DNA of 36,708 nucleotides from Minisyncoccota bacterium (GCA_016927565.1 JAFGMK010000007.1:1-36708), one strand, 5' to 3'. Numbered from the stretch's first letter, positions 1,131 to 19,719 are shown. Numbers and translations: made by a program. The notes: generated by a model from the letters alone, not told the origin.

Positions 1131-2402
1131 GTGGTCAGAAATAATAATGAGATTTTAAAACAGCTCCAGGAACAGACTCGGGAAGTCGCCGCCATCTATG
1201 TCGGCACCTATATTCCCCGGCCTTGCGGCATTGCTACTTATACTAAAGACCTTACCAACGCCATCAACATTCTCAACCCGAAGCGCTTGGCTGAAATCGC
1301 GGTTTTAGATCGGCCGGCTGAGAGTTATCCTTATCCCTGGGAAGCTAAATTCCGGATTAATATGTATGATTTATCCAGTTTTATCCAAGCGGCGGATTAT
1401 ATTAACCGCTCTGCCGCTGAACTGGTATGCATTCAGCATGAATTCGGTATTTTCGGCGGCCCCAGCGGTGAATATGTGATTCCTTTTATGGAGCGGATTA
1501 AAAAACCGATTGTTACTACTCTTCACACGGTTACCAAATCGCCGCCGATTGATGTTTTGAATATCGTCCAGAAAATTGCTTTTTATTCCGAGGCAATTAC
1601 AGTGATGGCCGAAGCCTGCATTCAAAGACTGGTTAAAATCTATAAAATTGACAAAAGAAAAATCGTGGTTATTCCTCACGGGGTTCCTGATGTGGCTTTT
1701 ACCTCGCCTGAGCCGTATAAAAAAAATTTGGGTTTGGAGGGTCGGATTATTATTTCAGCCATTAATCTTCTGAGCGACAATAAAGGCTTGGAATATGTAA
1801 TCGAGTCTTTGCCCAAAGTGATTAAAAAGCATCCCCGGATTCTTTTTCTGATCGCCGGTATGACTCACCCCGAAGTTCTCAAATGGCAAGGTGAGGCTTA
1901 TCGGAATTCTTTAGCCGAAAAAGCCAAAGAGCTTGGCGTTGAAGCGAATGTCATGTTTGACAATCGTTATGTCACTTTGGAAGAATTGATTCATTATTTA
2001 ATGGCCAGCGATTTTTATATCACTCCTTATTTGGGGGCTGATCAAACTGCCAGCGGTACTTTGGCCTATGCCTTAGCTGCCGGTAAAGTGTGTTTATCTA
2101 CCCCTTATGTTTACGCTCGGGAGGTCTTAGCCGATAAAAGAGGAGTTTTGATTGATTTTCGGAATTCGACTCAAATTGCCCAAGCCCTAAATTATTATCT
2201 GGATCATCCGCTGACAATGGAAAAAACGAAGCGCCGGGCTTATGATTACGGCCGGCAGATGATCTGGCATAATGTTGCTTTGAAACATCTTGAACTTTTT
2301 CGATTGATTTTGGCCCAAAAAAAACGTCGTGATGAGAAAAAAAGAAGAGAAAAAATAAAGAAAGAGATTCAAGAGGCGGCTAAAAAAGATATAAAAAGGT
2401 GA
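1131..2402 (+). CDS. Glycosyltransferase, GT4-like (GT-B fold)
   Basis: Probably a retaining GT-B glycosyltransferase that uses a nucleotide-sugar donor; acceptor and product are unknown. The N-terminal domain opens with a beta strand and a glycine turn (IYVGTYIPRPCGIATYTKDL, about residues 22-41), a hallmark of a GT4 subgroup. The C-terminal Rossmann domain starts near residue 205 and carries SDNKGLEYVIESL, YVTLEELIHYL and the donor-site region DQTASGTLAYALAAGK; here Asp stands where many GT4 enzymes have the first Glu of the E-x7-E motif. The tail (about 395-423) is a run of Lys, Arg and Glu, possibly a peripheral membrane or nucleic-acid contact. The start is GTG with a strong Shine-Dalgarno sequence. 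It is the first gene of a four-gene operon ending in a GH94 phosphorylase, so it may build the glycan the other enzymes process. Family confidence is high; substrate is open. Confidence 0.85.
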   Translation: MVRNNNEILKQLQEQTREVAAIYVGTYIPRPCGIATYTKDLTNAINILNPKRLAEIAVLDRPAESYPYPWEAKFRINMYDLSSFIQAADYINRSAAELVCIQHEFGIFGGPSGEYVIPFMERIKKPIVTTLHTVTKSPPIDVLNIVQKIAFYSEAITVMAEACIQRLVKIYKIDKRKIVVIPHGVPDVAFTSPEPYKKNLGLEGRIIISAINLLSDNKGLEYVIESLPKVIKKHPRILFLIAGMTHPEVLKWQGEAYRNSLAEKAKELGVEANVMFDNRYVTLEELIHYLMASDFYITPYLGADQTASGTLAYALAAGKVCLSTPYVYAREVLADKRGVLIDFRNSTQIAQALNYYLDHPLTMEKTKRRAYDYGRQMIWHNVALKHLELFRLILAQKKRRDEKKRREKIKKEIQEAAKKDIKR

Positions 2403-3475
2403 TGGCGGTTGAGACTCCCGATCTTAAAAATCCTCCTAATTTTGGCTTTTTTTTTAAATTGATTGATCGGCGGGGAATTCTTCAACACAGCCGCTTTTCC
2501 ACTCCCAAGGAGATAACAGGCTACAGCCTGGATGACAATGCCCGGGCCCTAATAGTAGCTGTTTGGAGCTGGTTTTTGTATCGTGATCACCGTTTTCTAA
2601 AATCAGCCGGAATACTTTTAAAATTCATTCAAGGCCAGCAAACAACTCAGGGAGATTTTCACAATTATCTTTTTGTTTCATTTAAAAGGCGTTTTTTATC
2701 CCGGGAATTGGCTGAGGATAGTTTTGGAGAAACAATTTGGGCGTTGGGAACTGTGCTGGCAATGGATTTGCCGCCCTCCCTGAAGCAGTCGGCCAGAGAA
2801 ATCTGGCTTCTTTCTTTCACTCAAATCCAAAAATTTACCAGCCTTCGTTGTCAGGCTTATTGTCTTTTGGGATTAGTTTCTTTCTGGAAAAAATACCCCC
2901 GCTCTGAAGTCAAGGATTTGGCTTTGTCTTTGGCTAATAATCTGATCAGAGCCTTGAAAACCGAGACAGACGGTGACTGGGTTTGGTTTGAAGATGGCCT
3001 GGTCTATGCCAATTCTCTTTTACCGTGGGCGCTTTTTGAAACAGGCCGGATTTTCAATCTTAAGAAACATTCAGAGGCGGCCCGCAAGAGTTTTGATTTT
3101 CTTCTCAGAATCACCTGGGTTGAAAACTGCGCCAGCCCGATCGGTCAGCGGGGTTGGTATAAGAAAGGGCGGGCCCGGGCTTTCTTTGATCAGCAGCCGA
3201 TTGAGGCGGGTTATATGGTTTTAACTTGTTTAGCGGCTTTTGAAGCGACTAAACAAGCAAAATACCGGCGGAAGGCGGTTGACTGGTTTGCCTGGTTTTT
3301 CGGGGCGAATCAGGCAGGCCTATCCCTAATTGATAAAGATGATGGCGGGTGTTATGATGGCCTTGAGCCGTGGAAGGTTAACCTTAACAAAGGAGCGGAA
3401 AGTACTGTTTGCTATTTAATGGCTTATCTGGAACTAGTCAGATATGGACAAGGATTTCTACGAGCTGGCGGATAG
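2402..3475 (+). CDS. Six-hairpin (alpha/alpha barrel) glycosidase-like protein
   Basis: About 357 aa. The upstream stop and this start share a base (TGATG), so the two genes are translationally coupled; a GTG three bases earlier is an alternative start. The N-terminal signature of the type 'RGILQHSRFSTPKEITGYSLDDNARAL' (positions about 24-50) matches a family commonly found beside GT4 glycosyltransferases and sugar phosphorylases. Those proteins are predicted alpha/alpha toroids and are often annotated only as glycosidase- or glycosyltransferase-associated. The DDNAR acidic pair is the best candidate active or binding site, and a second Asp-rich patch is IDKDDGGCYDG near residue 320. There is no signal peptide, so it acts in the cytosol. 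Its last 32 nt overlap the next gene. The role, trimming or processing the glycan made by the preceding transferase, is an inference. Confidence 0.7.
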   Translation: MAVETPDLKNPPNFGFFFKLIDRRGILQHSRFSTPKEITGYSLDDNARALIVAVWSWFLYRDHRFLKSAGILLKFIQGQQTTQGDFHNYLFVSFKRRFLSRELAEDSFGETIWALGTVLAMDLPPSLKQSAREIWLLSFTQIQKFTSLRCQAYCLLGLVSFWKKYPRSEVKDLALSLANNLIRALKTETDGDWVWFEDGLVYANSLLPWALFETGRIFNLKKHSEAARKSFDFLLRITWVENCASPIGQRGWYKKGRARAFFDQQPIEAGYMVLTCLAAFEATKQAKYRRKAVDWFAWFFGANQAGLSLIDKDDGGCYDGLEPWKVNLNKGAESTVCYLMAYLELVRYGQGFLRAGG

Positions 3476-5690
3476 CCGGCAAAAAGCTGTTTTTACCAAG
3501 GCCAAAGATACTTTTTCCTTATGCTTCCAGGTAAAAAAACAAAACAACTGGCAAAAGATTACCGCCGGGAATCCGCTGCTTCGGGGGTCAAGTTTTAATC
3601 TTTATCCCCGGACAATCCGGCCTTCAGATTCAAACTTGTTTCTAAAAGGCCGCCAAAAAGCTTTTGATCTTTCGGGTAAAAATTTTTTCTATTGCTGGCA
3701 GGCAGAAATAGCGCTTTTGAAAAATGGCTGGTTTAGGTTTGAAATCGAACTTGATCTGCCATGTCCTCTGCGTCTTTTCCAGGGGATTGAAACCGAGCCT
3801 CAAATCTCTTTTCAATTGCCGACAGTTTCCGTTCAGGAAGAAGGAGGATTGATCTGGCATCAGGTCCTGGTTAATAATCCGGTTGTCAATTGCACCGGAA
3901 TCCAGTCCAGCGATATGCCGGCAGTTTATTATTTTGACCCCCAATCCCAGGCTGAAATGATGCTTTTTTTGGACTGGCAATCTTTTAACTGGGTTTCTTT
4001 TGAAAATATCTTTGGATTTTTGGGAGGCCAATGCGGCTTAAAATCAATTCTTAAAAGAGGCCCGGATCAGCCTGTCAGAGAAAGATTTTTAGGTTTTTGG
4101 CCTCAAAATCCCCATTATCTCGGTACTATTCTGCCTGAGGGTAAACAGTTTTTCCGGTTTTATTTTAGTTGTCAAATGGCGGAACAGCCCGATGAGTGGC
4201 AGGCTTTGAGGCGACTGATTAACCGTCTTACCCCGTTGTTTGACAGCCAGTCTCAAAAAAAGAGTCCGGTGCATTCCTGGCATTCTTATAGCCGGCATTG
4301 CTTAACCGAATTGGCATCTCAAAAGAAGAACCAGGTTTTTTTTAAAGAACAAGCTTTGGGTTTCCGGGCTTTTGCCCAAGTCAAAGATTTTGTGTCACCC
4401 AATCCTCCCGGGCGAGTGGAATTAATGACCCAAGTTGATTTGCTTTGGCCTTTAATTCTCTGGGAGAAAAAAAACCCCGATTCTGAAGCCGGAAAGCTTA
4501 TCGGAAAATTACTGAAACTCCTTCCCGGATTCTGGGACAGCCGGGCCAATTTTCTCGCCAATTGGCACCCGCCGGCAAATGATCTTCTGTCTCAAGACCG
4601 GGAAACTTGGTATTTTTTGGAGAATGGCCTGATTAAATTCGGCTGGATTTCTCAGTTGACCGGGAACCCGTCGCTAAAAAAGATCTTTCTAAAGTTTGTC
4701 CAAACGATGGTCGAATTAGCTGAAGAAAACCGGTATTTATTTCCTTTGAGTTATGATTGGCGAAATCGTTGGGCTGTCGGCGGGGGTAAGAATTTTGTGG
4801 CCGGCGGTCTTTTTGCTTATGGAATGTGGTTGGCTTTCAAGATTACCGGCGAGAAAGAATATTTAACTCAAGCTGAGGCTGGATTAAGAACCATGCGGCA
4901 ATTGCCGTTAGCGCTTTTGTTTCATGAGCCTCAGCAATTGGGTTTTGCCGCTGCTGCCGCCGAATTATTAGGCTCGCAAAAAAACGAACCGGAAATCAGC
5001 AGTTGGGCTGAAGAATTCTTGAGTCAGCAACTGCGAATGTTTTATTGGTACACCGATCCCGGTCTGCTGAAGGCTATCAACTGCGATTCTGCCGGCATGG
5101 TCCGCTCTTTTCCTTCAAAAATTTATCCGGTGGTTAAGCACAATCCGGCCTTTAAGGAAAATGTTGAGTCGATTTTGCCCTGGCCGCTGCTGATGCCTCA
5201 AAGCAAGCTGACGCCGCTTCTGCTGAAATTTCTAAACCGGATCAGAATCAATAATTTCTATTATTTTGATTTATTTCATCAACTTAAAAATCCGAGCTTC
5301 ATTCCTCTTGAGGCTTTGCCGGCTTTATCTGAAAGCGGCCAAAGACATCAAGGGGGAGGAGTCGGGCATGCCATTTACGGAGCCGGTGAAGTGTTTTGGC
5401 TGGATTTATTTTTTGAAACCGGGATTAAAGCGGATAATCCGGAGATACTTACTTTCTGCCCGGATTATCTTCATCCGGAATTGGCTGATTCTTCAGACCG
5501 GCAAAACTTTATTGTTTATAATCCCGCCAACGAAAAAAAATCTTTTTCTTTAAAGTTTAACCGCTTGCCTTCCCGGGCTTCTGAGATAAGAGCCGGCCGG
5601 GAGAGGCTGATGATCAGAAAAGTTTCTGAACCGGTGTCACTTGAAATGCGGCTTGATCCCGGTGAATATCAATATGTTACAATCAGTTAA
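3444..5690 (+). CDS. Large unknown protein of the glycan operon, 748 aa
   Basis: I do not recognise a family. The ATG at 3444 lies inside the end of the preceding gene in another frame (32-nt overlap) and no ribosome binding site stands out, so translation is probably coupled. The N-terminal 260 residues are rich in Trp, Phe and Gln and look like a beta-sandwich of the kind that precedes catalytic barrels in carbohydrate enzymes. Residues about 280-640 look like a helical toroid, with paired Gly/Ala-rich helices such as NFVAGGLFAYGMWLAFKITG. The last 80 residues look beta-rich again (a C-terminal cap, as in GH94-like enzymes). No signal peptide or TM segment is seen. Its position directly before a GH94 phosphorylase suggests a glycoside hydrolase, lyase or phosphorylase-like role, but no catalytic motif could be assigned. 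Confidence 0.8.
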   Translation: MDKDFYELADSRQKAVFTKAKDTFSLCFQVKKQNNWQKITAGNPLLRGSSFNLYPRTIRPSDSNLFLKGRQKAFDLSGKNFFYCWQAEIALLKNGWFRFEIELDLPCPLRLFQGIETEPQISFQLPTVSVQEEGGLIWHQVLVNNPVVNCTGIQSSDMPAVYYFDPQSQAEMMLFLDWQSFNWVSFENIFGFLGGQCGLKSILKRGPDQPVRERFLGFWPQNPHYLGTILPEGKQFFRFYFSCQMAEQPDEWQALRRLINRLTPLFDSQSQKKSPVHSWHSYSRHCLTELASQKKNQVFFKEQALGFRAFAQVKDFVSPNPPGRVELMTQVDLLWPLILWEKKNPDSEAGKLIGKLLKLLPGFWDSRANFLANWHPPANDLLSQDRETWYFLENGLIKFGWISQLTGNPSLKKIFLKFVQTMVELAEENRYLFPLSYDWRNRWAVGGGKNFVAGGLFAYGMWLAFKITGEKEYLTQAEAGLRTMRQLPLALLFHEPQQLGFAAAAAELLGSQKNEPEISSWAEEFLSQQLRMFYWYTDPGLLKAINCDSAGMVRSFPSKIYPVVKHNPAFKENVESILPWPLLMPQSKLTPLLLKFLNRIRINNFYYFDLFHQLKNPSFIPLEALPALSESGQRHQGGGVGHAIYGAGEVFWLDLFFETGIKADNPEILTFCPDYLHPELADSSDRQNFIVYNPANEKKSFSLKFNRLPSRASEIRAGRERLMIRKVSEPVSLEMRLDPGEYQYVTIS

Positions 5691-9163: not shown

Positions 9164-10558
9164 ATGAAAATCAATCCCGCCATCTTCCGTTCTACTGATA
9201 TCCGGGGTGAAAATGATAAAGATCTGACGCCGGAGACTGTCGAGATGATCGGCCGGGGATTCGGAACCTATTTATCCCGAAAGGGAACCGGGGATTGTCT
9301 CCTTGGCCGCGATACCCGCTTAACTTCAGAAAGATTCAGCGCCGCTTTTAAAAAAGGCCTTCTTTCAACCGGTTGCAATGTTTTCGATATGGGATTAGCT
9401 CTTTCCTCGGCGATTTACCATGCCCGGAAGTATTATCAAATCGACGGAGCGGCAATGGTGACTGCCAGTCACAATCCGCCTCATTACAACGGCTTTAAAC
9501 TTTGCTCAGGAATTAATGCCATTGTCGATTCGGAAATTCAGGATCTCAAGGAAATCATTCTTAAGGGGAATTTTGTTCAAGGACGGGGAGAGGAAAAAGA
9601 ACTGCCGCAGGCCAATGAAATTTATTACCAGGAAATTCTGAAGAGAGTTAGTCTGAATCGGAAGTTGAAAGTGGTTCTGGAGGCCGGCCACGGAACGCCG
9701 GCCTTATTTATCCCTCAGTTTTTAGAGAAATTGGGATGCGAGGTGATAGTTCTTCATCCTGAGGTTGATTCAAATTTTCCCGCGGGTGTGCCTGATCCGG
9801 TCAATCCCGAATTCCGCCGAACCTGCGAACGGGCAGTGGTGGATAATCAGGCTGATATCGGTATTGTTATGGATGCTGACGGTGACCGGGCCGGATTCAT
9901 TGACGAAAAAGGTAAGATCTGGATGGGTGACATGATTTTGGATTTGTTTATCCGCGACTTTCTTCCCCGTAATCCCGGTGCCAAAGTAGTGGTGGAATTG
10001 AAAGATTCCGAAGTGGTAGTCGAAGACACTAAAAGACTGGGCGGCGTGCCGGTTTTCGGCCGGACAGGTCATGCCCTTTTAGACCACAAAGTCTTTGAAG
10101 AAAAGGCTTTGTTATGCGGCGAGATGAGCTGTCACTATTGGATTACCAAAGACTGGTATGTTTTTGATGATGCCATTATGGCAATGGCTCATGTTCTCCG
10201 GATCCTTTCTGAAACCGAAAAAACTCTTTCTCAATTGATGGCTCAAATTCCCCAATATCCGGCTACTCCGGAAATTCGCTTCGCTTGTCCGGAAGAAAAG
10301 AAAGTAGAAATTATTAAAAAGGCAGTGAATTATTTTAAAGACAAATGTGATCAGGCAATAACAATAGACGGAATTCGAGGGTATAAATACAATGGTTGGT
10401 TTCTCCTAAGAAAATCAAATACCCAACCCCTGCTTACTGCCAGAGCCGAAGCCAAAACCGAAGCTGATCTGGAAAAGCTGAAAAAATTTATTGCTGACCA
10501 CTTAAAATCCTATCCCGAGATAAATTTCGACTGGGAACGGGTTTATGATATCACCTAA
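9164..10558 (+). CDS. manB: Phosphomannomutase / phosphoglucomutase
   Basis: 464 aa, normal length for the alpha-D-phosphohexomutase family, which interconverts hexose-1- and hexose-6-phosphates. The four signature loops are present: the phosphoserine loop TASHNPPHYNG (about 101-111), the Mg-binding DADGDRAG (about 237-244), the sugar-binding GEMSCHYW, and the phosphate-binding RKSNTQPLLTARAEA near the C-terminus. The SNT form of the last loop is the type seen in the dual-specificity PMM/PGM enzymes of the AlgC group. The start has the best ribosome binding site in the window. It overlaps the mannose-6-phosphate isomerase-like gene by 14 nt. In context it would link GH94-derived sugar-1-phosphate to glycolysis and to GDP-mannose or UDP-glucose supply. 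Gene symbol by family analogy. Confidence 0.95.
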   Translation: MKINPAIFRSTDIRGENDKDLTPETVEMIGRGFGTYLSRKGTGDCLLGRDTRLTSERFSAAFKKGLLSTGCNVFDMGLALSSAIYHARKYYQIDGAAMVTASHNPPHYNGFKLCSGINAIVDSEIQDLKEIILKGNFVQGRGEEKELPQANEIYYQEILKRVSLNRKLKVVLEAGHGTPALFIPQFLEKLGCEVIVLHPEVDSNFPAGVPDPVNPEFRRTCERAVVDNQADIGIVMDADGDRAGFIDEKGKIWMGDMILDLFIRDFLPRNPGAKVVVELKDSEVVVEDTKRLGGVPVFGRTGHALLDHKVFEEKALLCGEMSCHYWITKDWYVFDDAIMAMAHVLRILSETEKTLSQLMAQIPQYPATPEIRFACPEEKKVEIIKKAVNYFKDKCDQAITIDGIRGYKYNGWFLLRKSNTQPLLTARAEAKTEADLEKLKKFIADHLKSYPEINFDWERVYDIT

Positions 10559-11753
10559 AAAAATCTACCTCGTGGCGCCGAGTTTGATTCCCCAGCCAAC
10601 CTGGGGGGGGAAATATATTTTGGAAGCAAAAGGCTGGCAGAATAAAGGCGGTTTTAAAGACCGGAAGATTGGTCAGTCCTACGAGCTTTTTTCCGGGAGT
10701 TTTCTCGATGTCGAAAGCAACACCTCTGCCAGCAAAGAGTTTGGCGGTTGGCTCGGCAATTCAAGCGATGTTAGGACCGCTGTTTATCAGGGAAAAAAAG
10801 CCAATCTGGTCAAACTGGAAAAGCTGATCGCTTCCGATCCGAAACTGATCTTAGGGCCGAAGGTTCTTAAGACTCACGGCCGAAAGCCGGGAATTTTGAT
10901 TAAATTTACTCAGGCTCTGGGCAATTCTTTCCAAATTCATATCGGACAAAGAATAGTCTCCAAAAAATGGCAGGCCAAAGCCGAAAGCTGGTATTATCTT
11001 GAACCCGGACTGCTTACTCTGGGCCTTAGGAAAAAGACAAAGCCGGTAGAGTTTAAAAAATGCTGTCAGCGAATAGATGCGGCTCTTAATCAAATCAGTC
11101 TGGAAATAAAAAAAAACCGGAAAACAGCGGCTGACGGCCGGAGCGAAGCTTTAAAAATAGTGAAACGGGAGAATCCCTGGTTATACGTCAATCTGGTTAC
11201 CGCCAAAAAGGATGATTTGATTGACCTGAGCGAAGGCGGTCTGCATCACTCCTGGGAAGAAGATTCTTCCCGGTTTCCTTTGGGAAATCTGGTCTATGAA
11301 CTTTGCCAGGACGTGATGGATCCGGTATCAACTCTCCGTTGTTTTGACCGGGGCAAGATCAAAGATGACGGCAGTCTCCGGAAGCTTGATATCAGCGATT
11401 ATTTTCGCTATCTTAACTCTCAGCCCGAATACAATAATCCTGAAAACCACCGTCTAAGGCCCAAGCTTGTCTGGTCGGGAACTAAGGGCAAAATTGAAGC
11501 TCTCTTAAGAACCGGAAATTACTGTCTCGATCGGTTTAAATTGAAAGGCAGTTATCAAGGCGAATCAGCCCGGACCCGGGATTCCTACCATCATCTTTTT
11601 GTCCAGGAAGGAAGGGTTTTTATCAAAGCCGGCAGAAGGGGGTTGGTCCTGACTCGGTGCCACAGCGCTTTTATTCCCGCCGCCATCGGCGCTTATGAAT
11701 TGATGCCGCTTGGTAAGAAAGAGGCGGTAATTTTAAAAACCTTTGTTAATTAA
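10545..11753 (+). CDS. manA: Type I mannose-6-phosphate isomerase-like protein
   Basis: 402 aa. PMI interconverts fructose-6-phosphate and mannose-6-phosphate with a zinc ion. The N-terminus has the family's WGG turn (PTWGGKYI, 18-25). The metal-site motif Q-x-H is FQIHIG (Q130, H132), followed by KAESWYYLEPG with Glu147 at the position of the third ligand. The C-terminal cupin has YHHLFVQEGRVFIKAG and FIPAAIGAYELMPL. The distal His ligand could not be fixed by eye; the His-rich LHHSWEED segment is a candidate. The ATG lies 14 nt inside manB, so translation is coupled. Its pairing with manB and the SIS gene supports a hexose-phosphate role. Divergence is considerable, so the exact sugar specificity is uncertain. 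Confidence 0.85.
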   Translation: MISPKKIYLVAPSLIPQPTWGGKYILEAKGWQNKGGFKDRKIGQSYELFSGSFLDVESNTSASKEFGGWLGNSSDVRTAVYQGKKANLVKLEKLIASDPKLILGPKVLKTHGRKPGILIKFTQALGNSFQIHIGQRIVSKKWQAKAESWYYLEPGLLTLGLRKKTKPVEFKKCCQRIDAALNQISLEIKKNRKTAADGRSEALKIVKRENPWLYVNLVTAKKDDLIDLSEGGLHHSWEEDSSRFPLGNLVYELCQDVMDPVSTLRCFDRGKIKDDGSLRKLDISDYFRYLNSQPEYNNPENHRLRPKLVWSGTKGKIEALLRTGNYCLDRFKLKGSYQGESARTRDSYHHLFVQEGRVFIKAGRRGLVLTRCHSAFIPAAIGAYELMPLGKKEAVILKTFVN

Positions 11754-11781
11754 TTTAACCGCATTCAAGAAAGGGAGGCAG

Positions 11782-12696
11782 ATGAAAATTCCCAATTTGG
11801 ATCAAATCGTTTACCAGTCCCTGAGGTTTTTTAAAAAAAGGCCGCCGCCCCGATTGGATCTGTCAGGATATAAATTACCCTTTGTTATCGGCAGTGGCAA
11901 TGCTTACAATACCGGCCGGGTTATCTTCGGCAATCAGGCGGCTGTTTTCGCCGATGAGAGTAATTTTAAAACAAAGCTCGAAGCTTTCAGGCCGATGATT
12001 AAAAAAGGTTTGATTAGCCGGGCTTTGATTATTTCTTCTTCGGGCGAAAAAGATTCAATCTGGGAAGTTAAGCTGGCTAAAAAACAAGGCTTAGAAACAA
12101 CCCTGATGACTTGTTCGCAAAATTGCACTGCCGGAAAATTTGCCGATAAAATGTTAGTTTATCCCAAGATTCCGGAGCCTTATACTTATAACACTTCTAC
12201 TTATTTGGGGATGATTCTTTCTTCAACCGGTGAGGCAGTTGACCTGATCTGGAATTTTATCAGGAAAACAGAATTACCGGCCAATTTCTCTTCTTACAGG
12301 GCTTATGCTTTTATTCTTCCGGATGAATGTCTCAATATCTGTCCGATGATTGAGATTAAAAAAAGCGAACTTTTCGGCGGTCGTTTGGCCATCCGTGCTT
12401 TTACTCAGGGACATGCCCGCCATGCCAAATTTCTGGTCCGTTGGGAACGGGAGCTGGTAATCTCCTTTGGTTTTAAAAACCAGTATTTTGGCCTGCCCCG
12501 GCATCGTTGGGAGCTTGAACTGCCGGAGCGGGGGGGGTTTGGTTTGATGCTGGCCCTGACTTATTTTCTGATTGGCCGAATTCAAGCCGCCAAGCCGGCT
12601 TATTTCAAAGAACACTTAGAAAAATTCTGCCGTGACTATGGTCCTGCGGCTTATGGAAAAGATCAATCCTTCTCCATAATTGTTCCCGGAAGTTAA
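11782..12696 (+). CDS. SIS-fold sugar-phosphate isomerase-like protein
   Basis: 304 aa from the ATG at 11782, preferred to the frame's first possible start at 11743 because AAGGGAGG lies 5-10 nt upstream. Two SIS-like pieces are visible: FVIGSGNAYNTGRV (about 25-38) for the glycine-rich first loop, and ALIISSSGEKDSIWEVKLAK (about 80-99), matching the SSSG-type phosphosugar loop. PYTYNTSTYLGMILSSTGE resembles the motif of bifunctional phosphoglucose/phosphomannose isomerases. The final half is more divergent. Likely role: an aldose/ketose phosphate isomerase (glucose- or mannose-6-phosphate), which would complete the set with the two preceding genes. No separate promoter is seen, so it is probably in the same operon. 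Confidence 0.7.
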   Translation: MKIPNLDQIVYQSLRFFKKRPPPRLDLSGYKLPFVIGSGNAYNTGRVIFGNQAAVFADESNFKTKLEAFRPMIKKGLISRALIISSSGEKDSIWEVKLAKKQGLETTLMTCSQNCTAGKFADKMLVYPKIPEPYTYNTSTYLGMILSSTGEAVDLIWNFIRKTELPANFSSYRAYAFILPDECLNICPMIEIKKSELFGGRLAIRAFTQGHARHAKFLVRWERELVISFGFKNQYFGLPRHRWELELPERGGFGLMLALTYFLIGRIQAAKPAYFKEHLEKFCRDYGPAAYGKDQSFSIIVPGS

Positions 12697-12704
12697 GTTG
12701 TTAG

Positions 12705-12734
12705 TTGACTTGTTAACTGCTGCCCTGCCATAAT
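12705..12734 (+). promoter_or_regulatory. Leaderless-type promoter of ppsA-eno-gpmI-acs
   Basis: The -35 TTGACT (12705-12710) and -10 CATAAT (12729-12734) are 18 bp apart. The -10 ends 6 nt before the ATG at 12741, so transcription should start at or next to the start codon. The -35 lies between the arms of a small inverted repeat, AGTTAA (12691-12696) and TTAACT (12713-12718), which may be an operator. Confidence 0.65.
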
Positions 12735-12740
12735 GAAACA

Positions 12741-15050
12741 ATGACAGCAAAAACCTCAAAAAGGGATAAATATATTCTTTGGTTTGATGAAATTGACAAA
12801 GAGGACTTATCTTTAGTCGGCGGGAAGGGGGCAAATTTAGGCGAAATGATTGCGGCTGATCTGCCGGTGCCGCCGGGTTTTGTAGTCGCGGTTAAAGCTT
12901 ACCGGGAATTTTTGAGTCAAAACCAGATTCAACCGAAAATAAAAGAGATCCTAAAGAGTTGTGATCGAAACGATCCGGAATCCTTTCAAACGGCTTCAGA
13001 TAAAATTAAAAAGATTATCCTCCGAGGTAAAATTCCCCCATTGATTGCCCGGGAAATAATGCAGGCCTACCTAAAACTGAATCATGGTTTAAAAAATGTT
13101 TTGGTAGCAGTTCGTTCATCAGCCACGGCTGAGGATTTGCCGGGTGCTTCTTTTGCCGGCCAGCAGGCAACTTTTTTGAATATCCGAGGTGAGTCAGCGG
13201 TTGTGGACCGGGTCCGGGCCTGCTGGGCTTCTTTATTTGAATCACGGGCGATTTTTTACCGGCAGGAGCAGGGTTTTGACCACTTCAAAGTCAGCATCGC
13301 CGTTCCCGTACAGGAAATGATTCAATCGGAGATTTCCGGAGTCATGTTCACCATTGATCCGATTACCAGCGAGAAGAATCGAATTTTAATCGAAGCTATT
13401 TATGGTCTGGGAGAATTAATTGTCCGCGGCGAAGTTATTCCTGACCGCTACATTGTTGACCGCCGGAAAATGAAATTAATCCATAAAACCATCGGCAACC
13501 AATCTATCCAATTAATCAAAGTGGGGGATTCCACCAGACGGCGTCGGGTTCCCGCCCAGCAGCGGGAAAAACAAAAGCTGGCTGACTCTAAAGTAATTGA
13601 GCTGGCTAAAATCGGCAGCAAAATTCATCAGCACTATTATTTTCCCCAGGATATTGAATGGGGTTTAAAGAAAAACAAGTTTTATATTTTGCAAACCCGG
13701 CCGGTAACAAGTTTTGCCGGAGATGATAAAAAAAGTTCAAAAGAACAGGCACGGCTTCAGATTAAATTACCGGTTCTGGTTAAGGGTGAATCGGCTTCAC
13801 CGGGCCTGGCTATCGGAACGGTTAAAATTGTTCCCTCTTCCAAAGCTATCGGCAAGGTAAAAAGAGGCGACATCTTGGTTACCCGAATGACGACGCCAGA
13901 TTTTGTACCGGCAATGAAAAAAGTGGCGGCGATTGTGACTGACCAGGGCGGTCAAACTTCGCACGCTGCCATTGTCAGCCGCGAACTGGGCTTGCCCTGC
14001 GTTATCGGCAGCCAACAGGCAACCAAACTTTTAAAAGACGGGATGGTGGTTACGGTTGATGCTACCAGCGGCAATATATATAAAGGAGGGATTGATTTAA
14101 GGGGAAAATCAATCAAGGGTAAATCCCGCTCCTGGCTCAAAAGCGATTCTCCTCTGGTAAAAACAGCCACTAAGCTTTACCTTAACCTGGCGGATCCGGA
14201 TCAGGCAAGGCAAATGTCTAATCAAAATGTCGACGGGGTCGGTTTATTGAGAGCTGAATTCATGATGGCTCAAATCGGTATTCATCCCAAAAAAATGCTG
14301 AAAGATCGAAAAGGCAGGGAATTTATCACCTGTCTGACTCAGGGACTAAAAACTTTTTGCGAAAGTTTTGCTCCCCGGCCGGTTGTTTACCGGGCAAGCG
14401 ATTTTAAAACTAACGAATATCGCAATCTCAAGGGAGGAGGCCAGTTTGAACCGGAAGAAGAAAATCCTCTTCTCGGTTTTCGGGGAGCTTATCGTTATCT
14501 GGCTGATCCTGAAGTTTTTGAACTGGAATTAGCTGCCATCTTAAAAGTACGGAATAAATACCATCTGCGAAATTTGTGGTTGATGATTCCTTTTGTCAGA
14601 ACTCCCCGAGAGTTGATGGAGGTTAAAAGAATAGTGGTTGCTAACGGCTTATCCAGAAGTCCCTCTTTTAAGCTTTGGCTGATGGTGGAAATTCCCAGTA
14701 ATGTGGTTTTACTGGACGAATTTATTGCGGTGGGAATTGACGGCGTTTCTATCGGGTCCAACGACCTGACAATGATGATGCTGGGAATTGATCGGGACAA
14801 TACTGTTCTTAAGGAAACTTTTGATGAAAGAAATCCGGCGGTTCTTTGGGCGCTTGAAAAAACTATCAGAAAATGCCAGAAACTGGGGATTTCCTGTTCA
14901 ATCTGCGGTCAGGCGCCTTCTCTTTATCCGACTTTGGTAGAAAAATTAGTCGAGTGGGGGATTACCAGTATTTCCGTTTCTCCAGACAGGATTGATCAAA
15001 CCAGGAAACTTATTTATGCCGCTGAGGAAAAAATAGTCAATAAAAAATAG
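12741..15050 (+). CDS. ppsA: Phosphoenolpyruvate synthase (pyruvate, water dikinase)
   Basis: 769 aa, close to the usual 790. It converts pyruvate plus ATP into PEP, AMP and phosphate, the entry step of gluconeogenesis. Domains in order: an N-terminal ATP-grasp (SLVGGKGANLGEM, 24-36; VRSSATAEDLPGASFAGQQ; GVMFTIDP), a central swivelling phosphohistidine domain with GGQTSHAAIVSREL (catalytic His408), and a C-terminal PEP/pyruvate-binding TIM barrel with VGLLRAEFM, SIGSNDLTMMMLGIDRD and SCSICGQAPS carrying the catalytic Cys. All key residues are present. PPDK is less likely because the gene lacks the extra length of that family. No ribosome binding site is present, consistent with a leaderless mRNA. 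First gene of an operon with enolase 4 nt downstream. Confidence 0.95.
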   Translation: MTAKTSKRDKYILWFDEIDKEDLSLVGGKGANLGEMIAADLPVPPGFVVAVKAYREFLSQNQIQPKIKEILKSCDRNDPESFQTASDKIKKIILRGKIPPLIAREIMQAYLKLNHGLKNVLVAVRSSATAEDLPGASFAGQQATFLNIRGESAVVDRVRACWASLFESRAIFYRQEQGFDHFKVSIAVPVQEMIQSEISGVMFTIDPITSEKNRILIEAIYGLGELIVRGEVIPDRYIVDRRKMKLIHKTIGNQSIQLIKVGDSTRRRRVPAQQREKQKLADSKVIELAKIGSKIHQHYYFPQDIEWGLKKNKFYILQTRPVTSFAGDDKKSSKEQARLQIKLPVLVKGESASPGLAIGTVKIVPSSKAIGKVKRGDILVTRMTTPDFVPAMKKVAAIVTDQGGQTSHAAIVSRELGLPCVIGSQQATKLLKDGMVVTVDATSGNIYKGGIDLRGKSIKGKSRSWLKSDSPLVKTATKLYLNLADPDQARQMSNQNVDGVGLLRAEFMMAQIGIHPKKMLKDRKGREFITCLTQGLKTFCESFAPRPVVYRASDFKTNEYRNLKGGGQFEPEEENPLLGFRGAYRYLADPEVFELELAAILKVRNKYHLRNLWLMIPFVRTPRELMEVKRIVVANGLSRSPSFKLWLMVEIPSNVVLLDEFIAVGIDGVSIGSNDLTMMMLGIDRDNTVLKETFDERNPAVLWALEKTIRKCQKLGISCSICGQAPSLYPTLVEKLVEWGITSISVSPDRIDQTRKLIYAAEEKIVNKK

Positions 15051-15054
15051 AAAA

Positions 15055-16320
15055 ATGGCCAAAGGAACGATTCGAAAAATCCAAGCCAGAGAAATTCTCG
15101 ATTCCCGAGGAAATCCGACAATTGAAACCAGAGTGGAGCTTGAGGAGGGCGATGTCGGGATTGCTTCAGTTCCTTCCGGAACTGCAGTCGGAAGATATGA
15201 AGCTTTTGAATTGAGGGATCACGATCCGAAAAGATACCGGGGAATGGGGGTTTTGTCAGCCGTCAATAATGTCCACCAGAAAATTGCACCTGTCATCCTG
15301 GGTCAGGAAACTACCAATCAGAAACAGATCGATCAGCAACTGATTCAATTGGACGGCTCCCGGGATAAATCAAAATTGGGAGTCAATGCGATTCTTTCTG
15401 TTTCTCAGGCTGTTTGCCGGGCCGGCGCCAATGTCAGAAAGGTCCCTCTTTATCAGCACGTTGCCGACCTTTTCGGTGAAAAAAAAGAAATGACAATGCC
15501 GGTTCCGCTTTTTAACTTGATTAACGGAGGCAAGCATGGAGCGGGAAATCTAGACTTTCAGGAATTTTTAATTTTGCCTTTTTTCCAGACTTTTGCCAAA
15601 GCCTTGCAAGCCGGATCGGAAATCTATCATCTGGTCGGTGAGGTTCTGATTCGCCACGGAGCTATTCACAGCGTTGGTGATGAGGGAGGTTTTGCTCCTA
15701 ATCTTTTTACCAATTTGGACGCTTTTGAGGTTCTAATAGAGGCGATAAAAGAATCAGGGATCGTTTTGGGTCAGAATGTTTTTTTAGGTTTGGACGTTGC
15801 CGCTACCTTTTTTTATCAGAATAACCGGTATCGGATCCGCGACCGCAGTGTTCCTTTAACCCCCGGTGAACTTATTGACTACTATGCTGATTTAAATCGG
15901 CAATACCCGCTTTATCTTCTGGAGGACGGTTTGGTTGAAGACGACTGGTCAGGCTGGCAGGAGCTAACTGCCCGATTGAATGAGGTTGTTATTGTCGGTG
16001 ATGACCTTTTGGTGACCAACCGACACCGGATTAAGCAAGCCGCAAGGAAAAAGGCTTGTTCGGCGATTTTGGTCAAGCCCAATCAGGTAGGAACAATTAG
16101 TGAAAGCCTGGAAGTGGTTAGAGCTGCCCGAAAAGCGAAATGGAAAGTGATCGTTTCTCATCGCTCCGGGGAAACGGAGGATAATTTTATTGCCGATTTT
16201 GCTCTGGGGGTTGGCGCTGATATGGTCAAGTTCGGCGCTCCGGCCCGAGGCGAGCGAGTTATGAAATACAATCGTCTGCTGATGATCGAAGAAGAACTGA
16301 AAAAAAATGCCCGATTGTGA
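15055..16320 (+). CDS. eno: Enolase with altered mobile loop
   Basis: 421 aa, normal length; interconverts 2-phosphoglycerate and PEP. Identity is clear from AREILDSRGNPTIE, INGGKH (H161), SVGDEGGFAPN (E210 region), FLGLDVAA, LEDGLVEDDW, VGDDLLVTN, ILVKPNQVGT and VSHRSGETEDN. These cover the metal ligands, the general acid/base Glu and the catalytic Lys. One feature is odd: the flexible loop that is usually PSGASTG is PSGTAVG (40-46), so the Ser that in studied enolases helps bind the second Mg is Ala. The region after the second catalytic Lys is VKFGAPARGER instead of the usual KTGS/CGS form. There is no ribosome binding site; the start is 4 nt after ppsA, suggesting coupling. Active enolase is likely but kinetics may differ. 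Confidence 0.95.
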   Translation: MAKGTIRKIQAREILDSRGNPTIETRVELEEGDVGIASVPSGTAVGRYEAFELRDHDPKRYRGMGVLSAVNNVHQKIAPVILGQETTNQKQIDQQLIQLDGSRDKSKLGVNAILSVSQAVCRAGANVRKVPLYQHVADLFGEKKEMTMPVPLFNLINGGKHGAGNLDFQEFLILPFFQTFAKALQAGSEIYHLVGEVLIRHGAIHSVGDEGGFAPNLFTNLDAFEVLIEAIKESGIVLGQNVFLGLDVAATFFYQNNRYRIRDRSVPLTPGELIDYYADLNRQYPLYLLEDGLVEDDWSGWQELTARLNEVVIVGDDLLVTNRHRIKQAARKKACSAILVKPNQVGTISESLEVVRAARKAKWKVIVSHRSGETEDNFIADFALGVGADMVKFGAPARGERVMKYNRLLMIEEELKKNARL

Positions 16321-16332
16321 ACTCAAAGACTT

Positions 16333-17970
16333 ATGGAAGCCGTCCGTTCGTTAGTCCTCATTATCCTCGATGGTTGGGGTCTGGCACCGCCAGGCCCGGG
16401 GAATGCCATTTCTCTTGCTCAGACTCCGAATTTTGACCGGCTTTGGACGGTTTTTCCCCATACTCAGCTTGAAGCCTCAGGAGAGGCAGTCGGCTTGCCT
16501 CCGGCCGAAGACGGTAATTCTGAAACCGGCCATCTAAATATCGGTGCGGGACATATTGTTTATCAGGATCTTCCCCGGATCAATATGGCCGTGGCTGAGG
16601 GAGCTTTTTTTAAGATTCCGGCCTTTCTCAAGGCAGTCGACCATGTTAAAACAAACAACTCGATTCTTCATCTGATGGGAATGATTTCTGATGCCGGGAT
16701 TCACTCCAGTCTCAATCATCTTTTTGCTCTTTTGAGATTGGCTCGCAATGAAGGAATCTCAAGGGTTTTTTTACATCTTTTCACTGACGGCCGCGATTCG
16801 CCGCCTAATTCTTCGTTGATCTATCTTACCAGTATTCAGAATATGATCCAGGAAATCGGCGTAGGAGAAATAGCAACGCTGATCGGCCGCTATTACGCCA
16901 TGGATCGGGATCTAAGGTGGGAGAGGGTTAAAAAAGCCTACGAGCTTCTGGTTTTGGGCCGGGGGCGGTCAGCTGTTTCGGTTGAAGCGGCCATCAATCA
17001 ATCTTATCAGGACGGCAAAACCGACGAATTCATTGAGCCGATTGTCCTTACGCAGAAAGACGGCCGGCCTCGCGGATTAATCAATGACAATGATGCGGTT
17101 ATCTTTTTTAATTTCCGGATCGATCGCCCGCGCCAGCTGACTAAAGCTTTTGTTCTGCCTGATTTTGAAAGCCTTCAGATCCAAAGAGCCAGCTTTGATC
17201 CTTATGCGGAAAAATACGGGCTTAAACAATACGAGCCGCCTCAAGGAGATACCACTTTCAGACGGGAAAAAGTTTTAAAAAATCTTTTTTTTGTTACCAT
17301 GACCGAATATGAAAGGGGCTTGCCGGTTGAGGTGGCTTTCAGGCCAATTCTGGTCCAGATGCCGCTAGGAAGAGTTCTTTCGGAAAACGGCCTTCGCCAG
17401 CTCCATGCGGCCGAAACGGAAAAGTTTCCTCATGTTTCTTATTTTTTTAATGGCGGCCGGGAAAGAAAATTTCCCGGCGAAGATCAAATTCTGATTGCTT
17501 CGCCTCGGGTGGCAACTTATGATCTTAAACCGGAAATGGCTGCTTACGAGGTGACTGAGGCGGTATTAAAAAGGATCAGGTCGCGGATTTATCAGTTTAC
17601 CATTCTCAATTTTGCCAATCCGGATATGGTCGGCCACACCGGTGATTTGAGTGCGGCTATCAAAGCCTGTGAAGTAGTTGATGATTGCTTGCGAAAAGTG
17701 GTAAGAAATACGATCTCTTTGGGTGGAATTGCGGTCGTGACAGCAGATCATGGCAATGTGGAAGAAATGATCAATCTGAAAACCGGTCAGGCCGATACCG
17801 AGCATTCCTGCAATCCGGTTCCCTTCATTGTAGCCAGTTCAACTCTCAGCCAGGGCGGAAGAAATTTACCGGCCGGGATTTTGGCTGACATCAGTCCGAC
17901 TATTTTGCATTTGATGGGAATCAGCGTTCCTTCAAGCATGTCTGGGCGAAACTTATTAAGTAGTTTATAA
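16333..17970 (+). CDS. gpmI: 2,3-bisphosphoglycerate-independent phosphoglycerate mutase
   Basis: 545 aa, slightly above the usual 510; interconverts 3- and 2-phosphoglycerate with two Mn ions and a phosphoserine intermediate. Seen: ILDGWGLAPPG with Asp13, EDGNSETGHLNIGAG with the nucleophile Ser63, FTDGRDSPPNS, GRYYAMDRDLRWERV, NFRIDRPRQL, HAAETEKFPHVSYFFNGG, and the metal-binding NFANPDMVGHTG and TADHGNVEEM in the alkaline-phosphatase-like domain. The usual GNSEVGH is GNSETGH here. It lies 12 nt after eno in the ppsA operon, and no ribosome binding site is evident. ppsA, eno and gpmI together cover the reversible steps between pyruvate and 3-phosphoglycerate. Confidence 0.96.
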   Translation: MEAVRSLVLIILDGWGLAPPGPGNAISLAQTPNFDRLWTVFPHTQLEASGEAVGLPPAEDGNSETGHLNIGAGHIVYQDLPRINMAVAEGAFFKIPAFLKAVDHVKTNNSILHLMGMISDAGIHSSLNHLFALLRLARNEGISRVFLHLFTDGRDSPPNSSLIYLTSIQNMIQEIGVGEIATLIGRYYAMDRDLRWERVKKAYELLVLGRGRSAVSVEAAINQSYQDGKTDEFIEPIVLTQKDGRPRGLINDNDAVIFFNFRIDRPRQLTKAFVLPDFESLQIQRASFDPYAEKYGLKQYEPPQGDTTFRREKVLKNLFFVTMTEYERGLPVEVAFRPILVQMPLGRVLSENGLRQLHAAETEKFPHVSYFFNGGRERKFPGEDQILIASPRVATYDLKPEMAAYEVTEAVLKRIRSRIYQFTILNFANPDMVGHTGDLSAAIKACEVVDDCLRKVVRNTISLGGIAVVTADHGNVEEMINLKTGQADTEHSCNPVPFIVASSTLSQGGRNLPAGILADISPTILHLMGISVPSSMSGRNLLSSL

Positions 17971-17985
17971 AAAAGGAGTTTTTTG

Positions 17986-19719
17986 GTGGAAAAAAAAATA
18001 ATCAAAAAAAATAAGGCCTTGCTTAAGAAAAGTCCTAATTTGGCCGATTACGAAAAGACCTATCGCTCATTTGCCTGGTCGAAAGTTGAAAAGGAACTCG
18101 ACTGGTTCGAAGGTAAAAGATTAAATGCCGCTTACAATGCGATTGATCGGAATGCAACCAACTTTCGTAAAAATAAAGTGGCGATGTATTGGGAAGGAAA
18201 TCAGGGCGAGAAAAAAAAGTTTACTTTTGCCGAACTGGCAATGCTTTCTTCCAAATTTGCCAATGTTCTGAAGCGTTTAAAAATTGACCGGGGAGAGCGG
18301 GTCTTCTTCTTTTTGCCTCGAATTCCTGAGCTTTATTGGGGTTTTTTGGGAACTTTAAAAAGAGGAGCAATTGCCGGGACTCTTTTTGCTGCCTTCGGGC
18401 CACAGGCGCTTCTGGATCGGCTTGATAATTCCGATGCGCGGATTTTGGTAACGAACGAAGCTCTTCTGCCTCGGGTTTTAGAGATTGCTTCTAAACTCAG
18501 ATATCTCGAAAAAATTATCCTGGTTGACGGGGAAAGCCGATCAAAAAAGATTCTCAGTTTGAACCGGTTAATGAAAAAAGCTCCGGAAGAATATCAAGCG
18601 GCAGAAATGAAGCCCACTGAGCCTGCTTTTATGCTATACACTTCAGGCACCACCGGCAAGCCTAAGGGTGTGGTTCATACCCATCAGGCGATTCTTCATG
18701 AACATCTGACCGCTAAATGGGTGCTTGATCTTCGGGATGAGGATGTTTACTGGTGCACCGCCGATCCCGGATGGGTAACCGGGATTGCTTATAATATTCT
18801 GGGTTCCTGGAGTGTCGGTGCTTCAAGTCTGGTTTTCGAGGGCCGTTTTGACCCGGAAACCTGGTACCGGCTAATTGACGAATACAATGTCAGTGTCTGG
18901 TATACTGCTCCCACTGCAATCAGGATGCTCGCGGCCGGCGATCAGGAATTATTAAAAAAATATAACTTTTCTACCCTCCGTCATCTGGCTTCAGTCGGCG
19001 AACCTCTAAACCCGGAGGCAGTCTGGTGGGGTCTTAAGGCTTTTGGTTTGCCATTTCATGATAATTGGTGGCAGACAGAAACGGGAGGAATTTTAATTGC
19101 CAATTTTCCCTGCTTGGATATTAGGCCGGGATCGATGGGTAAGCCGGTTCCGGGAGTTAAAGCCGGGATCATTAATGACAAGGGTGAGGAATTGGCCCAA
19201 AATGAAATCGGCAACCTTGCCATCCGGCCCAACTGGCCCTCAATGATGAAAAAAATCTGGCGCCGGCCAAAAAAATACCGCAGTTACTTTATCAACGACT
19301 GGTATCTTTCGGGTGATTTGGCTTACAGGGATAAAGACGGCTATTTTTGGTTTGTCGGCCGGGCTGATGATGTGATTAAAACCGCCGGGGAAAGAGTCGG
19401 CCCTTTTGAAGTTGAATCGGCCCTGGTCTCTCATCCTGCCGTCATTGAGGCTGGGGTTATCGGCAAACCTGATCCGATGCGGGGCGAAATTATCAAAGCC
19501 TTCGTAGTTCTGGCCAAAAATTATCAGCCGTCTGAAGCTTTAAAAGAAAAACTGCAAAAATATGTTAAATCTCATTTAGCCGGTCACGCTTACCCCCGGG
19601 AAATTGATTTTATTAAGCTTTTACCCAAAACACGATCCGGCAAAATTGTCCGCCGCTTTCTTAAAGCTCAGGAATTGGGCCTGCCGGTCGGGGATACCTC
19701 AACCTTGGTAAAGTATTGA
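17986..19719 (+). CDS. acs: Acetyl-CoA synthetase (AMP-forming)
   Basis: 577 aa from the GTG at 17986; a TTG at 17983 is possible, but AAAAGGAG (17971-17978) is better spaced for GTG. An ANL-superfamily enzyme joining acetate, ATP and CoA. Motifs: P-loop-like YTSGTTGKPKGVVHTHQ, ADPGWVTGIAYNILG, HDNWWQTETGG with the Trp that limits the pocket to acetate in studied enzymes, WYLSGDLAYRDKDGY, and the C-terminal PKTRSGKI with the catalytic Lys that is the acetylation switch in other bacteria. Typical Acs has about 650 aa; the missing part is N-terminal. It is last in the ppsA operon, but unlike eno and gpmI it has its own ribosome binding site. Role: acetate assimilation, or possibly acetate and ATP formation in reverse if flux demands. 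Confidence 0.92.
   Translation: MEKKIIKKNKALLKKSPNLADYEKTYRSFAWSKVEKELDWFEGKRLNAAYNAIDRNATNFRKNKVAMYWEGNQGEKKKFTFAELAMLSSKFANVLKRLKIDRGERVFFFLPRIPELYWGFLGTLKRGAIAGTLFAAFGPQALLDRLDNSDARILVTNEALLPRVLEIASKLRYLEKIILVDGESRSKKILSLNRLMKKAPEEYQAAEMKPTEPAFMLYTSGTTGKPKGVVHTHQAILHEHLTAKWVLDLRDEDVYWCTADPGWVTGIAYNILGSWSVGASSLVFEGRFDPETWYRLIDEYNVSVWYTAPTAIRMLAAGDQELLKKYNFSTLRHLASVGEPLNPEAVWWGLKAFGLPFHDNWWQTETGGILIANFPCLDIRPGSMGKPVPGVKAGIINDKGEELAQNEIGNLAIRPNWPSMMKKIWRRPKKYRSYFINDWYLSGDLAYRDKDGYFWFVGRADDVIKTAGERVGPFEVESALVSHPAVIEAGVIGKPDPMRGEIIKAFVVLAKNYQPSEALKEKLQKYVKSHLAGHAYPREIDFIKLLPKTRSGKIVRRFLKAQELGLPVGDTSTLVKY

Follow-up and report, generated by a model that had tools for sequence, protein, structure and literature searches.

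The window, that is, the whole stretch of DNA analysed here, comprises the complete contig C8 (36,708 bases) of a 1.19 Mb genome that is distributed over 31 contigs and 96% complete; the genomes of class relatives measure 0.5-1.5 Mb, as would be in keeping with the Patescibacteria/CPR. It carries an operon of four co-directional genes that encode, in this order, a GT4-type glycosyltransferase with a PDB match to PimA (8e-8), a protein referred to here as DDNAR protein, a 748-aa protein and a GH94 glycoside phosphorylase (Table 1). The preliminary description had recorded four genes joined by overlaps or short gaps, and its coordinates proved exact, with overlaps of 4 nt (GT4/DDNAR) and 32 nt (DDNAR/748-aa) and a 17-nt gap in front of the GH94 gene. 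It had also called the genes cytosolic, and a simple hydropathy scan revealed neither a hydrophobic N-terminus nor a membrane-like segment in any of the four proteins, which fits such a location. Scans for promoters and terminators gave nothing meaningfully above shuffled sequences.

Table 1. Coordinates of the operon genes, the candidate catalytic acids and the phosphomutase gene in the window
Feature	Coordinates	Strand	Basis
GT4-type (GT-B) glycosyltransferase, 423 aa	1131..2402	+	Pfam PF00534 1.5e-16, PF13692 8.5e-14
DDNAR protein, 358 aa	2399..3475	+	no Pfam; profile matches YPO2471, GH76
748-aa protein	3444..5690	+	ATG at 3444, stop ends 5690; hhalign, hmmsearch, models, fold searches
Candidate catalytic acids E326 and E387 of the 748-aa protein (inferred)	4419..4604	+	hhalign columns, model secondary structure
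GH94 glycoside phosphorylase, 793 aa	5708..8089	+	PF17167 8e-113, PF06165 1e-65
Phosphoglucomutase/phosphomannomutase (PGM/PMM)	9164..10558	+	PF02878-PF02880, NF046027

The length of the 748-aa frame together with its native codon use rules out a chance ORF. Its codon fit (0.113) and GC content (44.7%) match those of the neighbouring genes, and as both values are normal, a recent foreign origin was rejected on grounds of composition. The PGM/PMM gene belongs to a separate gene group, set off from the operon by a gap of 328 nt and by a holA-like gene. The region that follows the operon (9164-19719) encodes, besides PGM/PMM, a PEP synthase, an enolase, an iPGM and an AMP-binding acyl-CoA synthetase-like protein, and it includes two sugar-phosphate isomerase-like genes (10545-11753 and 11743-12696) with weak family matches only. 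Further along, uvrA and uvrC flank a gene for a transglutaminase-core protein (27048-28874) that shares 88 nt with the listed start of uvrC.

The 748-aa protein and its relatives

At permissive thresholds, the 748-aa protein has no sequence match in Pfam, NCBIfam or the PDB, where the one line returned (E 1.9) is noise, and the earlier statement that it belongs to no recognised family hence stands. A tblastn search against plasmids yielded one weak match (E 2e-4), a 723-aa 'hypothetical protein' of Asticcacaulis. This protein in turn led to 29 loci, the majority of them in species of Asticcacaulis, Sphingomonas, Sphingobium and Novosphingobium, and to a 35% relative from the Bacteroidota genus Spirosoma, and the resulting family of about 720 aa is itself absent from Pfam and NCBIfam. 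A profile of this family built without the 748-aa protein matches the latter at 43 bits (hmmsearch), and hhalign against the family, likewise built without it, gives 97% (E 9.4e-11) in a match that is confined to residues 204-508 and leaves the beta domains uncovered; when the proteins are compared end to end, about 20% of positions are identical. Judging from these profile comparisons, the 748-aa protein is a distant member of an unannotated family found in sphingomonads, Asticcacaulis and Spirosoma. Homology between this family and that of the DDNAR protein could not be demonstrated (hhalign 7%). In Novosphingobium sp. 28-62-57, four stops interrupt the matched frame of the family gene (L023:8001-10171), which points to a possible pseudogene or a fault in the assembly.

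Single-sequence searches of genome contigs and viral contigs gave no match to the 748-aa protein, and an alignment search of the viral contigs gave none for its family. No relatives were found in 137 close genomes, and profile searches found no other in 380 phylum genomes or 374 class genomes, although these searches lean on alphaproteobacterial sequences and homologues resembling the 748-aa protein alone could be missed. In the phylum of G488, relatives are present in three of 349 genomes, G488 itself being one of the three. The distribution of the family suggests gene transfer.

The recurring neighbours of the family loci are a gene for an SDR reductase and a GH130 gene. Of some 30 loci, about 12 have the latter at a distance of no more than 8 kb, and more of them have the SDR gene; discounting near-identical copies among the Asticcacaulis loci leaves about eight GH130 occurrences that are independent. 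At several loci the genes form a single run, as in Novosphingobium P6W, where the family gene, the SDR gene and the GH130 gene follow each other with overlapping ends. A GH130 gene lies beside the family gene also in Spirosoma, a member of a different phylum. The GH130 protein of Asticcacaulis is nearest to mannobiose phosphorylase models, at scores below their cut-offs, and keeps basic residues at columns common to other GH130 proteins. The recurrence of GH130 and SDR genes supports a carbohydrate-related role of the family, and the proposal that the homologues should have carbohydrate genes as neighbours is borne out, Spirosoma included. The specific expectation of recurring GT4 and GH94 neighbours, in contrast, holds for the DDNAR gene, whereas the homologues of the 748-aa protein adjoin GH130 and SDR. 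The window's genome also has a GH130 gene elsewhere (L097:7268-8290, G000 contig C21), away from any GT4-DDNAR pair.

Predicted fold and active-site residues

Modelled from a 23-row alignment, the 748-aa protein itself yields a poor prediction overall (pLDDT 49.5, pTM 0.58), with low confidence outside the barrel; a large part of residues 320-530 is nevertheless predicted as helical with a confidence that ranges from fair to good. GH127 beta-L-arabinofuranosidases and AGE epimerases head the Foldseek matches of this model. For a Sphingomonas member of the family, AlphaFold gave a model with a pLDDT of 86 and a pTM of 0.90, which consists of a beta-sandwich up to about residue 235, a helical (alpha/alpha)6 barrel up to about residue 645 and a C-terminal beta domain. 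The beta / helical-toroid / beta layout postulated for the 748-aa protein is thus right for the family, as seen in this member's model, and likely for the 748-aa protein.

The PDB matches listed for the Sphingomonas model are carbohydrate enzymes except for the tail protein of SSV19 and complement C5. Nearly all of these enzymes have an (alpha/alpha)6 barrel (GH95, GH127, GH76 and AGE epimerases; a polysaccharide lyase is also listed), with a GH94 fold at rank 31. On the length of the target, the TM-score against a GH76 mannanase reaches 0.66; on the length of the query, no listed match exceeds about 0.36, so that none of the solved families listed has the full architecture. The best fold match of the family model (L010:8001-10196) is the tail protein of the archaeal virus SSV19 (7xdi_F, E 1e-9), hinting that this tail protein may hold a barrel domain.

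Among the residues of the family, 18 D/E positions and three His are conserved. Few of these 18 positions are kept acidic in the 748-aa protein, chiefly E251, E326, D365 and E387, and the conserved acidic residues anticipated in the preliminary description are to this extent largely gone. According to hhalign, E326 aligns with family D301 and E387 with family D361, the latter pair residing in RETWY of the 748-aa protein and DSWY of the family (common motif [DE][ST]WY). The family-invariant residues D429, H367, H400, E541, E610, D611, Q624 and E625 are not kept, and among the invariant polar residues of P0001 that were tested (D361, D429, H367, H400, E541, E610, D611, E625), only D361 has an acidic counterpart. 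Enzymes of this kind place their catalytic residues at the N-ends of barrel helices, and from the modelled position of E326 and E387 at such ends we infer that they are candidate catalytic acids. The active site of the 748-aa protein has diverged, and catalysis may be lost or altered; the activity of the family can therefore not simply be carried over.

The GT4-DDNAR-phosphorylase module

A DDNAR homologue is present in 25 of the 137 class relatives, the window's genome included. Five of them (G055, G097, G117, G040 and G080) have the GT4, DDNAR and GH94 genes in this order with nothing between, at identities to the window's proteins of 51-54%, 34-42% and 48-54%, respectively, and the 748-aa gene is consequently not locked into the operon as had been proposed. 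In seven others (G086, G103, G001, G008, G099, G023 and G014), the GT4-DDNAR genes lie beside GH130 and are in some cases fused (~740 aa). Fused GT4-DDNAR genes (~760 aa) with GH130 are also carried by plasmids of Ilyobacter, Sphingobium, Rhizobium and Novosphingobium, in Sphingobium together with a mannose-1-phosphate guanylyltransferase and in Rhizobium daejeonense with a subsequent AGE gene. The recurrence of GT4-DDNAR with either GH94 or GH130 indicates that GT4-DDNAR and a phosphorylase form the conserved unit, to which the 748-aa gene was added in the one genome where it is seen. Split or fused (window 1131-3475; L058-L060, L062, L063-L078), the module with GH130 or GH94 was seen in Patescibacteria-like genomes, Fusobacteriota and Alphaproteobacteria.

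The DDNAR protein or domain has no family in Pfam or NCBIfam. Its profile A4 matches YPO2471 (7tem, 2e-22), on which the literature search returned no paper, and a GH76 mannanase (6e-4), and it is probably an (alpha/alpha)6-barrel partner of the GT4 that is fused to it in many bacteria. In the literature searched, no product of the module is described. At four loci of class relatives (L066:1254-4238, L064:10795-15050, L067 and L065), a further GT4 gene, a WecG/TagA gene and MreB precede GT4-DDNAR-GH94, an order that suggests a link to envelope glycans in these organisms.

The GH94 protein of the window is closest to chitobiose phosphorylase (1v7v, 4e-152), followed by cellobiose phosphorylases (~1e-143). 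Its residues D483, H636 and T701-G702 align with D492, H644 and T709-G710 of chitobiose phosphorylase, and we take them to be the catalytic Asp (D483) and the phosphate-site residues H636 and T701-G702, as in the published structure of that enzyme. On the supply side, ManC-like and GalU-like genes were recognised by eye, so that genes for GDP-mannose and UDP-glucose synthesis appear to be present, and a GT35 glycogen phosphorylase was not found in the genome.

Discussion

From our perspective, the data are best explained, at a probability of about 0.5, by assuming that the 748-aa protein is an accessory cytosolic carbohydrate-active barrel enzyme, a distant member of the ~720-aa family, that was added to the GT4-DDNAR-phosphorylase module. 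Fold class, family link, gene order and the retained GH94 residues come from the computation itself. The working that we propose around them, including catalysis, the bond acted on, the direction of flux and the identity of the glycan, would be as follows. The protein would comprise a catalytic (alpha/alpha)6 barrel flanked by an N-terminal beta-sandwich and a C-terminal beta domain, and its gene would have been inserted into a pre-existing module between those for DDNAR and GH94. Drawing on GDP-mannose or UDP-glucose, the GT4 with its DDNAR partner would build an alpha-linked glycoside or acceptor, and the GH94 enzyme would make the terminal beta bond by spending a sugar 1-phosphate, or break it and gain one. 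The 748-aa protein could then cleave or rearrange a bond beyond the reach of GH94 in a hydrolase- or transglycosidase-like manner, and the sugar 1-phosphate would pass via the nearby PGM/PMM into glycolysis. A more far-reaching version, in which the protein founds a new glycoside-active family that partners with GH94 here and with GH130 elsewhere, in an undescribed cytosolic GT4-DDNAR glycoside cycle of ultrasmall bacteria apparently without glycogen phosphorylase, is considerably more tentative.

It is conceivable, at odds well below those of an accessory enzyme, that the 748-aa protein is a degenerate, non-catalytic barrel which binds a glycan or scaffolds the GT4, DDNAR and GH94 enzymes. 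This would agree with the loss of the family-invariant D429, H367, H400, E541, E610/D611 and Q624/E625 as well as with the occurrence of the gene in a single genome among the 380 phylum and 374 class genomes. However, the reading frame runs uninterrupted from start to stop and its codon use is native, and acidic E326, E387 and D365 are kept at the ends of barrel helices.

Somewhat less probable still is a function in cell-envelope glycan assembly, with the barrel protein and GH94 editing a lipid-linked or teichoic-acid-like glycan. In four of the relatives (G097, G117, G040 and G080), the genes ahead of GT4-DDNAR-GH94 are a further GT4 and a member of the WecG/TagA family, close to MreB, the WecG/TagA neighbours having been identified by Pfam in G040 and G097 and by similar gene order in G117 and G080. 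These neighbours are absent from the window, though, known GH94 phosphorylases act on soluble cytosolic oligosaccharides, and the hydropathy scan detected no membrane anchor in the four proteins.

The preliminary description had instead proposed a reserve cycle in which the products of the four genes could build an intracellular beta-glycan and phosphorolyse it again. The retained GH94 residues, the failure to find a glycogen phosphorylase and the PGM/PMM and lower glycolysis genes downstream all accord with this view, but the linkage chemistry conflicts with it. GT4 transferases are retaining enzymes and hence form alpha bonds. GH94 and GH130 phosphorylases are inverting and cut beta bonds to give alpha-sugar 1-phosphates (PMC8950772; PMC4264767). 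The beta bond must consequently come from elsewhere, possibly from GH94 run backwards, and the combination favours a short glycoside of mixed linkage over a plain beta-glycan. Since, in addition, the GH94 protein is closest to disaccharide phosphorylases and the operon contains neither a polymerase nor a branching enzyme, we consider the beta-glycan cycle unlikely. The operon as such may have a reserve role; among the papers listed by the literature searches, none dealt with such a role of GH94 in CPR bacteria.

Cellobiose 2-epimerase prepares a disaccharide for GH130 mannosylglucose phosphorylase, and an AGE-like 2-epimerase or isomerase could serve a phosphorylase in the same way; AGE epimerases among the best fold matches, the AGE gene of Rhizobium daejeonense and the three conserved His of the family point in this direction, but with these His replaced in the 748-aa protein and large flanking beta domains missing from AGE enzymes, this is the least probable of the readings.

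What emerges is a candidate for a new family of barrel enzymes with ties to glycoside phosphorylases. Many glycosidases, phosphorylases and epimerases have an (alpha/alpha)6 barrel, yet the present family of about 720 aa has no relative in Pfam, NCBIfam or among solved structures. Since its members repeatedly accompany glycoside phosphorylases, and do so in three unrelated groups, the family lends itself to the search for a new activity. The product of the GT4-DDNAR-phosphorylase module, once solved, would reveal the glycoside that bacteria with such small genomes both synthesise and recycle in the cytosol.

Comparison with known systems

GH94 enzymes such as cellobiose and chitobiose phosphorylases share the order beta-sandwich / (alpha/alpha)6 barrel / C-terminal beta domain with the 748-aa family. 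The 748-aa protein, however, has no GH94 profile match in Pfam and lacks the GH94 catalytic and phosphate motifs, while the window's own GH94 compared with the ~720-aa family reaches an hhalign value of 0.5%; an assignment to GH94 was therefore rejected. GH127/GH146 beta-L-arabinofuranosidases and GH95 fucosidases are among the best whole-length fold matches of the family, but TM-scores of GH127 and GH95 are no higher than 0.2-0.35 over the whole length (for the GH127-like fold, Foldseek E 6e-7 but TM 0.26-0.32). GH127 enzymes use a cysteine nucleophile with a Cys3-Glu zinc site, and as the family has one conserved Cys and thus no such nucleophile or zinc site, membership in GH127 was likewise rejected. 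The barrel of GH76 alpha-mannanases superposes on the family model (TM-score up to 0.66 on the target) with a weak echo in sequence against the family profile (E 0.17), but GH76 consists of the barrel alone, and no matching catalytic Asp-Asp pair was noted. Membership among the AGE 2-epimerases was rejected, as their catalytic His pair has no counterpart and the family-conserved His are replaced.

The nearest relative is the family of WP_338736364.1 ('hypothetical protein'), which is homologous to the 748-aa protein over at least residues 204-508. The ~720-aa family and the 748-aa protein have a common domain order in the models and a carbohydrate phosphorylase as neighbour, and differ in gene context (GH130 and SDR versus GT4-DDNAR-GH94) and in many family-invariant polar residues. 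At the level of gene clusters, the closest described case is that of Thermoanaerobacter, which combines a GT4, a GH130 beta-1,2-mannoside phosphorylase and a mannose-1-phosphate guanylyltransferase and for which an import-based salvage was proposed (PMC4264767). It contains GH130 instead of GH94, with no homologue of the 748-aa protein described, and shares with the window the placement of a GT4 beside glycoside phosphorylases.
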